From: Peterkaempfera griseoplana
GTDB lineage: Bacteria; Actinomycetota; Actinomycetes; Streptomycetales; Streptomycetaceae
NCBI RefSeq assembly: GCF_001418575.1
Contig: NZ_LIQR01000199.1
Location: 1-34,641 of the forward strand
DNA length: 34,641 nucleotides
Direction: 5' to 3'
Shown here: piece after piece, positions 11,557-15,107 of the stretch
How the letters are laid out: every line of letters begins with the position of its first letter
Position numbering within the stretch: position 1 is the stretch's first letter
Translations under genes and position numbers: made by a program
Notes under the pieces: generated by a model
Database searches by the model: none
Told to the model about the DNA's origin: nothing
What the model saw: only the letters and a program-made list of their open reading frames with translations

Positions 11557-12426
11557 TCAGACCCGGTCGGCCACGATCAGCAGGTACTGGAAGCTGCCGT
11601 TCCGGTAGGCCGTCAGGAACGTGTCCTCGATGCCCGTGACCAGGTGCTCCGCCTGCTTGCGCAGTTCCCAGTACGGGATGGTGGCATCGGTCAGGTCCTG
11701 CACATGGACGGGTACGAGGCGGTTGGCGGCCATGGCCCGGAAGTAGGCCGACCGGGGGTGGATGTCGCAGATGTAGTGGGAGTTGATGAGGGAGACCTCG
11801 CGCGAGGCCCGTCCGTAGGTGTCGTTGTAGCAGCCGGTGACCGTCACATAGCGCCCGCCCCGGCGCAGCAGCCGGGCGTGCTCGGCGAACAGCAGGTCCA
11901 GTTCGACGTACATGGTGGACTCGTTGTTCCAGGACGCCGCGTACGCCCCGGTGCGGAAGCCGGTGTCGAGCATGTTGCGGTGGTGGTACCGCACCTTGTC
12001 GCTGATGCTCCGCTTACGGGCCTGTTCGTTGGCGAAGTCGGCCTGCTTGCGCGAGATGGTGACGCCGTCGGCGTGGCAGCCGTACCGCAGATGGGCCACG
12101 ACGCTGCCGCCGCCGCGCCCGCAGCCGGCGTCGAAGACCCGGTCGGTGGGGGCGAGCGGCCCCAGGTGACCGGCGAGCAGGTCGGCCTGGGCCTGTTCCA
12201 GCCGGTGCAGCTCGGCGGTGATCCGCGTCCGGCGGCGGGCCGGGTCCGGCTCGTCGAGCACGGACCAGTCGGCCTCACCGATGCCGTAGTGGTGGTGGTA
12301 GAGGTCGTCGATCTTCCCGAGTTCGACGTTGACCGGGTTCTCCTCGGCGTTCCAGTAGTCCGCGACGCGGTTCTGGTACGTGGACTGGGTCGGCACCGGC
12401 GCTGTGGTGGTGTCGGCGGTCGTCAA
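11557..12426 (-). CDS. Geranyl diphosphate 2-C-methyltransferase
   Basis: This 289-aa SAM-dependent methyltransferase carries motif I at residues 97-107 (VFDAGCGRGGG). Family signatures of the 2-MIB pathway enzyme include YQNRVADYWNAEENPVNVELG, YHHHYGIGEADW, WNNESTMYVEL and the GCYNDTYGR segment. It methylates C2 of geranyl diphosphate to give 2-methylgeranyl diphosphate, the substrate of the adjacent 2-methylisoborneol synthase. The start is TTG, backed by GAGGAG 6 nt upstream. The gene is third in the shell-cyclase-methyltransferase order, 60 bp after the cyclase, and is followed by a hairpin. It corresponds to mtf of the cyanobacterial 2-MIB operon. It lacks the long disordered N-terminal tail of the cyclase, so it probably works outside the shell. 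Confidence 0.95.
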   Translation of the reverse strand: MTTADTTTAPVPTQSTYQNRVADYWNAEENPVNVELGKIDDLYHHHYGIGEADWSVLDEPDPARRRTRITAELHRLEQAQADLLAGHLGPLAPTDRVFDAGCGRGGGSVVAHLRYGCHADGVTISRKQADFANEQARKRSISDKVRYHHRNMLDTGFRTGAYAASWNNESTMYVELDLLFAEHARLLRRGGRYVTVTGCYNDTYGRASREVSLINSHYICDIHPRSAYFRAMAANRLVPVHVQDLTDATIPYWELRKQAEHLVTGIEDTFLTAYRNGSFQYLLIVADRV

Positions 12427-12486
12427 CGTTTGCTCCTCATGGTTGTACTGGTGAACTGGAACCGGAAGTGGTCGGGCAGCTGGGAC

Positions 12487-13665
12487 CTACCAGTAGTTCG
12501 GCAGGTGGTAGCGGTGGGAGTTGGTGGCGTGCCACTCGTGGTTGCCGGCGACCCAGGCCGCGAGCCCCTCGGCGTAGCGCGCGACGACCGGGGAGGTGGC
12601 GGACAGCTCCGCGGACTCCTCCTCGAAGGCCTGCATGACGCGGTTGTGGACCTCGACCGCCCGCAGATAGGCGGTCCTGAGCCCGCACTTCTCCCTGGCC
12701 GCGATCACCTGGGGGAGATTGAGATGGGTGGGGTCGTGGGCCAGCTCCTTGGTGAAGGAGTACAGGTCGTTGACGATGGTGGTGGCGTTGCAGGCGAGTG
12801 CGGTGATCCGCTGGATCTCGGGCCGGGAGTAGACGGCCTCGGGCAGTTCGTAGCCGTCCACGGCGTCCACGATCGACAGACAGGGGCGGAAGTTGTTGAA
12901 CTGCCGCATCACCAGGTACTCCCAGACCTCGGGCACATGTCCGGTCTCGGTCCAGGCGGCCTCGGCGAGGTACCCGAGGTGGAGACGGGCGATGTCGTGC
13001 ACAAAGCGGGTCGACTGGCTGGGCGTGGCGAAGGCGGCGTAGTCCCTCAGCGCCAGGTGGTACGAGCGCAGCGGCCCGTCCGCCTGCATCCCGAGCCGCC
13101 ACTGCTCCTCCAGCTCGGGGGTGCCGTGGTACGGGTCGATGGCCGACTGGGCCATGATCAGCCGGCCGCCCAGGCCGCGCGGCGAACCGCCCTTGCCCTC
13201 GTTCTCGCAGTAGCAGTCGTCGACCAGGTTCTCGGCCAGCAGCAGCTCACCGGCCACGGTGAGGCGTTCCAGGTCGGCCGCGCCCGGGTGCTGGAGTACG
13301 ACGGCCCGGCCGACCTGGAACCCGGCGAAGTCCTCCAGCCAGGCCGGGGGGAACAGGTCGAACCGGCGGGCCCAGTCCTCCAGCCTGCGGTCGACCTCCC
13401 TGACCTTCCCGGGGTCGGCGGGTACCGCGGGCCGGTACCGCAGCCCGGGGACGGGCCCGCCGCGCCGGGCCGGGCGTACGGTGCGGGACAGGCTCGGCGG
13501 ACCCGGCAGACGGCAGCGAGGGACGGAGGGGGCGCCGCCCGAGGACGCTCCGGGCACGGGTGCTCCGGCGGGTGCTCCGGCCGCAGGGACGCCGGCCGAG
13601 GGGGCGGCCCCGGCCGCGGCGGTGTCCGGCGGACCGGAGGGGACGGATCCGGTGGGTGCGCTCAT
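12487..13665 (-). CDS. 2-methylisoborneol synthase (class I terpene cyclase, encapsulin cargo)
   Basis: This 392-aa terpene cyclase converts 2-methylgeranyl diphosphate to 2-methylisoborneol. The Mg-binding acidic motif is DDCYCEN (149-155), the variant seen in 2-MIB synthases instead of DDxxD, and the NSE triad is NDLYSFTKE (299-307). The C terminus has the [10 protein letters not shown] arginine-tyrosine element. Residues 1-100 are a Pro/Ala/Gly-rich disordered tail with an isolated basic and hydrophobic island ([13 protein letters not shown], 48-60). In family 2B encapsulin systems such a tail directs cargo into the shell. Its ATG overlaps the shell gene's TGA (ATGA, 13662-13665), implying translational coupling. 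It corresponds to mic of cyanobacteria. Confidence 0.96.
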
Positions 13666-15107
13666 TCGGCGGTCCGTCCGAGCTGGACGTTCTCCAGGAT
13701 GCCCACGGCGTCGGGCACCAGGACGGCCATCGAGTAGTAGGCGGTGACCAGGTACTTGGTGATCGCACTCTCGTCGATGCCCATGAACCGTACGTTGAGC
13801 CCCGGTTGGTACTCCTCGGGGATACCCGTCTGGTGCAGGCCGACGACACCCTGGTCGGCCTCACCGGTGCGGAGCGCGATGATGCTGCTGGTGTGCTGCG
13901 CGCTGACCGGGATCTTGCCGCAGGGGAGGATCGGCACCCCCCGCCAGGCGGGCACCTGGTGTCCGTCCAGATCCGTGCCGGCGGGCATCAGGCCGCGCCG
14001 GTTGCACTGCCGGAAGAAGGCGGCGATGGCTTTGGGATGGGCGAGGAAGAACCGGGTCTTGCGCCGCATGGACAGCAGCTCGTCGAGGTCGTCGGGGGTC
14101 GGCGGCCCGGTGAGGCTGCTGATCCGCTGCCCGTAGTCCGCACTGTGCAGCAGTCCGAACTCCCGGTTGTTGACCAGCTCCCACTCCTGGCGCTCGCGGA
14201 TCCCCTCGATGGTCAGACGGAGCTGCTGCTCGGTCTGGTCCATGGGGTCGTTGTAGAGGTCGGCGACCCTGGTGTGGACGCGCAGGACGGTCTGGGTGAG
14301 GGACAGCTCGTACTCGCGCGGGGTGAGGTCGTAGTCGACGAACCCGCCGTCGATGGTCGGCTCGCCCACATGCCCGGCCTGGACGGGGAGGTCGGCCTCG
14401 CCCTTGCGGTTGACGGGCCTGCTCTGCTGCACCGCGTAGGCGTCCAGATGGGCGGCGAGGGACGGGGTGCGTCCGACGAGGTCCAGGAGGGCGGCCCAGG
14501 GGAGTGCCAGCACGACCCCGGCGGTGTCGGCGCGCACCGAGCTGAGCCACAGCGGGTCGGTCCGGCCGATGGCCTCGTCCCCCAGCTGGTCGCCGTCGGT
14601 CACCGTCCCCAGGATCGCCTCCTCGCCGTACCGGCCCGCCGTGTGGCGGGTGAAGCGGCCGTGGACGACCAGATACGCCTCGGTGACCGGCTGGCCCGCC
14701 TCGAAGAGCACCTCGCCGGGGCGCATCTCCCGCACCTGGAACCGGGAGGAGAGCTCCCGCAGCACACCGGTGTCGGAGTAGCCGCGCAGGGCCGGCAGCT
14801 CGGTCAACGTCTCGGGGATGACCCTGATGTCGTCGGAGCCGTTGTGCTCGAACTGGACCCGCCCCCGTCCGACCCGCAGCTGGAGGCGCCGGTTGACGCG
14901 GTAGGTGCCGCCCCTGACGTCCACCCAGGGCAGCATCCTGAGCAGCCACCGCGAGGTGATGCCCTGCATCTGCGGTTCGGACTTGGTGGTGGTGGCGAGC
15001 TGGCGCGCCGCCCGGGTGCCGATGCTGGTGAGCTGCCCGCCGGACGCCGCGGGCGTGGCGTCGGGTGCGGGCTCGGCGGATCCGTCGACGCTGTCAGGGA
15101 CAGGCAC
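13662..15107 (-). CDS. Family 2B encapsulin shell protein with cyclic-nucleotide-binding domain
   Basis: This 481-aa protein has an HK97-type capsid fold interrupted by a cNMP-binding-like domain, the arrangement of family 2B encapsulins. It is related to the 'cnb' proteins beside cyanobacterial 2-MIB genes. A flexible N arm (1-45) precedes the first shell segment (46-105: [19 protein letters not shown]). The cNMP-like beta-roll spans about 108-225, and the rest of the shell fold runs from about 245 ([23 protein letters not shown] would start it) to 481. Signature stretches include [40 protein letters not shown] and [20 protein letters not shown]. It should self-assemble into an icosahedral compartment enclosing the cyclase encoded next. 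The GTG start has GGGAGGG 4 nt upstream. Older annotations may call it Crp/Fnr regulator, which would be wrong. Confidence 0.93.

Follow-up and report, generated by a model that had tools for sequence, protein, structure and literature searches.

A family 2B encapsulin operon of the eshA-mibA-mibB type in Peterkaempfera griseoplana, from a subclade whose cyclases lack the GPTGLGT motif

Three adjoining genes of Peterkaempfera griseoplana bear on the question of why bacteria house an enzyme that makes a volatile compound inside a shell of protein. We analyzed a stretch of 34,641 nucleotides (assembly GCF_001418575.1, contig NZ_LIQR01000199.1, positions 1–34,641 of the forward strand; hereafter the window), in which three intact open reading frames on the minus strand, at 15107–13662, 13665–12487 and 12426–11557, encode a family 2B encapsulin shell protein, a terpene cyclase of the 2-methylisoborneol (2-MIB) synthase type and a geranyl diphosphate (GPP) 2-C-methyltransferase (GPPMT). 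We consider it likely that this is an eshA-mibA-mibB operon in which the methyltransferase feeds a cyclase making 2-MIB, or a close C11 terpenoid, and a porous shell takes up the cyclase. The cyclase belongs to a subclade with features that are new relative to the literature covered: absence of the published cargo motif, a different conserved motif in its place, tight coupling of the shell and cyclase genes, and losses of the adjacent shell.

The shell gene (13662–15107, minus strand) starts with GTG and encodes 481 residues of the EshA/Sg-Enc type. The sequence-only reading had asked for a hidden Markov model search of this protein, which hits the encapsulin model NF041163 of NCBIfam at 719 bits (cut-off 400) and the SrpI-like family PF19307 at 446 bits (E 5e-134); by this homology, the C-terminal part (residues 227–477, 13677–14429) is an HK97-fold, SrpI-like domain as expected of a family 2B shell. 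The family matches of the shell, cyclase and methyltransferase are all far beyond chance. In the E-loop, after the N-terminal part and ahead of the SrpI-like domain, lies an insertion with the cyclic nucleotide monophosphate (cNMP)-binding fold (PF00027, 52 bits; residues 126–211, 14475–14732). The presence of this domain, and the older naming of homologues as Crp/Fnr regulators, could be taken to mean that the protein is a Crp-type transcription regulator in an otherwise ordinary operon. No helix-turn-helix DNA-binding Pfam domain was detected in the 481-residue protein, however, its C-terminal part is SrpI-like, and it matches the solved Streptomyces griseus shell EshA/Sg-Enc (9BHU) essentially along its full length (601 bits, residues 26–477), cNMP-fold insertion included. 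We regard the regulator as already refuted by homology to the solved shells and give it negligible probability. The concern that this copy might be mis-annotated is likewise out of date: the shell and the methyltransferase now receive their names from NCBIfam equivalog models, and the cargo cyclase from a model of exception level. The homologous Protein Data Bank entries of the shell are still labelled Crp/Fnr.

Alignment of 28 shells shows a conserved N-arm (residues 27–48, 14964–15029) in which S28, T31, A33–R35, L37, T40–K42 and P45–M47 are invariant or nearly so, and a tryptophan of the inserted domain, Trp187, that is invariant in all 28. In CRP, the position of Trp187 is taken by the phosphate-binding arginine. 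An invariant tryptophan there agrees with the report that the cNMP-like domains of family 2B shells do not bind cyclic nucleotides (PMC12407261), and by analogy with these homologues the window shell would not bind cAMP. The S. lydicus family 2B shell described in that report (9BIX, 9BJE; 570–574 bits) has two components encoded by two shell genes, in contrast to the single gene in the window. Ratios of nonsynonymous to synonymous substitution (simple Nei-Gojobori estimates between four subclade members) are 0.12–0.29 for the HK97 part and 0.33–0.69 for the cNMP domain, and by these estimates the shell is under purifying selection where it is present. At fourteen positions the shells of the subclade are fixed for a different residue; these were not used as evidence, such differences being expected at this clade divergence. 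A search for further relatives of the shell in viral contigs returned none.

The second gene (12487–13665, minus strand; ATG, 392 residues) encodes a single-domain class I terpene cyclase of the 2-MIB synthase type, the presumed cargo. It scores 430 bits against the cargo-cyclase model NF041167 (cut-off 400) and is closest in structure to 4ZQ8, an isoprenoid synthase (625 bits); S. coelicolor 2-MIB synthase (3V1V, 399 bits), which shares the class I fold and motifs, differs in having a proline-rich N-terminal domain of 115 residues. Both metal-binding motifs are intact: the Asp-rich motif DDCYCE (followed by N; residues 149–154, 13204–13221), with D149 invariant in 16 cyclases, and the NSE motif NDLYSFTKE (residues 299–307, 12745–12771), with N299, S303 and E307 invariant in the same number. 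The third gene (11557–12426, minus strand; TTG, 289 residues) adjoins the cyclase gene, as expected for 2-MIB biosynthesis, and encodes a GPPMT matching NF041943 at 468 bits (cut-off 400) and the GPPMT structures 4F84 and 3VC1 at 356–360 bits. The product could still be mainly another C11 terpenoid, for example 2-methylenebornane: identity to canonical cyclases of the 2-MIB synthase type is only about 49–53%, 36 near-fixed differences separate subclade and canonical cyclases, and related synthases are described as yielding 2-methylenebornane or mixtures (PMC5908152). With the catalytic motifs kept, the cyclase model above its cut-off and a GPPMT equivalog adjacent, we find such a product improbable.

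The three genes have a GC content of 0.93–0.95 at third codon positions, and their codon-position GC profile is that of Streptomyces genes. The shell GTG, preceded by a GGAGG-type Shine-Dalgarno site, and the methyltransferase TTG match the starts in near relatives, and the order and strand of the three genes are kept across many Streptomycetaceae. Thus far the sequence-only reading stands: three intact minus-strand genes lie where it placed them, and its reading of them as a single operon of 2B shell with cNMP-like insert, 2-MIB synthase-type cyclase and GPP methyltransferase is supported. In S. griseus, the cyclase and GPPMT genes likewise lie downstream of the shell gene. A study of that organism, from the laboratory responsible for the operon survey cited next, reportedly found that the 2-MIB synthase is encapsulated by way of its disordered N-terminal domain and that cAMP is not bound; we do not use it as support. 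The survey covers 904 terpene-cyclase operons of family 2B, C-methyltransferases being present in many of them, and finds GPTGLGT in most 2-MIB synthase-like cargo (PMC8346489). S. venezuelae eshA-mibA-mibB (vnz_35035–35045) has the same gene order as the window and forms one operon, shown in that species to be activated by BldC, and its EshA is not required for 2-MIB (PMC6428758). Judged by its genes, the window locus is an operon of this type, which is already known from these two papers and the S. griseus structure 9BHU. Among 395 Streptomycetaceae genomes, 388 have a family 2B shell and 245 a GPPMT above cut-off; no GPPMT at cut-off was found in the two congeners searched (G001, G002).

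Used as DNA queries, the cyclase and methyltransferase genes retrieved matches that fell into two classes, at about 79–86% and about 68–71% identity, with a few intermediates. From the first class we took 73 loci, one of which (L181) proved to be an intermediate with GPTGLGT, leaving 72 subclade loci besides the window; 40 canonical loci (L188–L227), picked by similarity and not at random, were taken from the second for comparison.

Several results weigh against the reading of a shell that takes up the cyclase. GPTGLGT is absent from the window cyclase and from all 72 subclade loci, and an adjacent shell is missing from 13 of the 72, both enzymes being kept. An AlphaFold model of the shell, built from an alignment of 12 rows that was too shallow, had a mean pLDDT (predicted local distance difference test) of 46.7 and was set aside, so that the fold rests on homology. 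Finally, the nearest structure of the cyclase, 4ZQ8, goes unmentioned in the literature covered.

The missing motif matters most for loading. Of the 40 canonical clusters, 34 carry GPTGLGT in strict form and 5 a near variant, and the window differs from the S. griseus system in that its cyclase is without the motif, its N-terminal domain also being shorter than that of canonical cyclases. An outgroup cyclase, from the plasmid locus L055 of NBC_01591, has GPTGLGT, so the subclade probably lost it. The subclade cyclases instead have a short N-terminus with [LPM]PGPPx[LI], in the window PGPPSL (residues 54–59, 13489–13506); the N-terminus of the window cyclase is longer than that of the subclade because of a stretch rich in Ala, Pro and Gly (residues 1–52, 13510–13665), which does not contain the GPTGLGT published, as part of a disordered N-terminal domain, for most but not all such cargo. 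Encapsulation of the cyclase, as the sequence-only reading had it, is therefore not supported for the window copy, which is without the only published targeting motif. PGPP was considered as a replacement tag and found no support: a hand count that includes locus L013 gives it in 49 of 58 subclade clusters with a shell and 11 of 14 without one (Fisher p 0.69), and a tag that depended on the shell would not be kept equally in both. There is also a resemblance between the shell N-arm, SLGT.AAR, and the cargo motif GLGTSAAR, which share LGT.AAR; as a test of whether the cargo motif copies the N-arm, 214 of 3000 shuffles did as well, which is not significant.

These results might be read to mean that the subclade cyclase is free in the cytosol, its cargo-loading domain degenerated and the adjoining shell dispensable or put to another purpose. 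Besides the absent GPTGLGT and the evenly kept PGPP, this would fit the shortening of the N-terminus to about 30 residues in most subclade members and two published observations on the N-terminal domain, namely that it makes the S. coelicolor enzyme less active and that some 2-MIB synthases do without it (PMC10520479). It would also fit the shell losses described below. Set against it, the shell is retained in most of the subclade, where its gene is tightly coupled to that of the cyclase and subject to purifying selection, and an adjacent shell is commoner than in the tag-bearing canonical clade (59 of 72 loci versus 15 of 40). On balance we think a free cyclase unlikely, though worth keeping in view.

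Coupling of the two genes is a feature of the subclade as a whole. The shell stop and cyclase start of the window overlap by four bases (ATGA, 13662–13665, minus strand), just as the sequence-only reading had noted in proposing tight coupling, and the proposal extends to the relatives: in 57 of the 59 subclade loci that have a shell, the shell stop and the first possible cyclase start either overlap or are no more than 20 bp apart. The four-base overlap recurs in 16 of these 59, compared with none of the 15 shell-bearing canonical clusters, where the spacing runs from 12 to 367 bp and the genes are thus less tightly coupled. That the overlap might be peculiar to the window, the gaps in three near relatives being 16–20 bp, was ruled out by its frequency in the larger set.

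Loss of the shell was scored as absence from a span reaching about 5 kb upstream and about 1 kb downstream (for L187, the contig extends only about 1.6 kb upstream). In a tree with 77 rows, the 13 shell-less subclade loci amount to 5 changes, at least 2 of them forced by well-supported branches, and their matched cyclase stretches and methyltransferases are free of stops. In S. albidus, pieces of the shell N-arm and C-terminus remain in or near the cyclase frame. The cyclase open frame of L184 begins GGNVSPPEATTGPA, resembling the DvalAA-14 shell start GENVSTPEGATGPV, as it would after a clean deletion of the shell. From such remnants we conclude that the shells were lost in place. Relocation of the shell elsewhere in HPF1205 or S. 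albidus was considered and rejected: no match of at least 74% was found, and the other shells of these genomes, 54–59% identical to that of the window, appear by sequence to be paralogues, with no ortholog of the window shell found. The shell is accessory to 2-MIB synthesis and not a requirement. Protection from product toxicity or control of release, which the sequence-only reading had suggested, is not supported, since EshA is not required for 2-MIB (PMC6428758) and the adjacent shell was lost about five times with the enzymes intact.

Shell-less clusters are also found in the canonical clade (25 of 40 loci), where all but one keep GP[ST]GLGT or a near variant; a tag kept without an adjacent shell suggests that these cyclases are loaded in trans, by shells encoded elsewhere. 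The many canonical 2-MIB synthases of this kind bear on a further possibility, that the main or an additional client of the window shell is a two-domain enzyme of the geosmin-synthase type, the shell serving both odorants in trans. Such an enzyme is encoded elsewhere in the genome (contig C248, 12859–15042; loci L006 and L009) and has two GLGT.AAR motifs, GPLGLGTSAAR in the stretch that links the two domains and MGLGTGAAR at the C-terminal end, in keeping with what has been published on geosmin-synthase-like cargo of encapsulins (PMC8346489). The window shell is, moreover, the only SrpI-like (PF19307) match detected in the genome. This last point is tempered by the state of the assembly, about 96% complete in 802 contigs, from which a second shell may be missing. 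The two-domain protein scores 1187 against the encapsulin-cargo model NF041168, just below the cut-off of 1200, geosmin synthase and shell are not co-localised, and the role of the tag motif has itself only been proposed; we therefore hold a geosmin-synthase-type client to be rather unlikely.

We tentatively put these strands together as follows, as a possibility with somewhat less than an even chance of being right. The subclade would have given up GPTGLGT and kept the shell either for another loading route, in which coupled translation assists a short PGPP-type N-terminus, or to serve a client encoded elsewhere, of which geosmin synthase is an example; the shell losses would then be natural knock-outs in which the shell proves optional for 2-MIB. 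The likely course of the pathway itself follows the homologues. The methyltransferase would convert GPP to 2-methyl-GPP, from which the cyclase would make the musty-smelling 2-MIB or a close C11 terpenoid. The shell would assemble, as its homologues do (PMC12407261), into a porous T=1 particle of the HK97 fold, its cNMP-like domains on the outside, and would take up the cyclase, for which, without the published tag, another element would be needed. The sealed compartment envisaged by the sequence-only reading finds no support: large two-fold pores, of 14 x 60 Angstrom, are described in a related shell of family 2B (PMC12407261).

Upstream of the shell gene, the presumed promoter region (15108–15340, minus strand) does not have the subclade CTGTTTGGC box intact and has CTGTTTTCC at -227. 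Among loci L115–L187, a CTGTTTGNC box is common to those with a shell, found in 40 of 50 at a median distance of 85 bp ahead of the shell start, where mononucleotide shuffling leads one to expect 0.13; of the loci without a shell, L152 alone has the box less than 900 bp from the cyclase match. Genes for a DrrA/DrrB-like ABC transporter and a MarR regulator lie further upstream on the same strand (15916–18030). On the other side, the methyltransferase gene is adjoined by a gene for a LuxR-type regulator (10200–11356, plus strand), whose GAF-like part and helix-turn-helix (GerE) are in different frames; it looks frameshifted, through either sequencing error or decay to a pseudogene. Some relatives of the operon (L021/L057, L054 and L055) lie on records of 1.1–2.8 Mb labelled linear plasmids (S. 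nigrescens SNP1, BHT-5-2 p1 and NBC_01591), and the operon may therefore be mobile.

A subclade that lacks the tag, couples shell and cyclase tightly and has close shell-less relatives with both enzymes provides matched natural pairs for the role of the shell and the rule by which it is loaded. Should the single shell of this genome take up geosmin synthase as well, the two earthy odorants would share one compartment.

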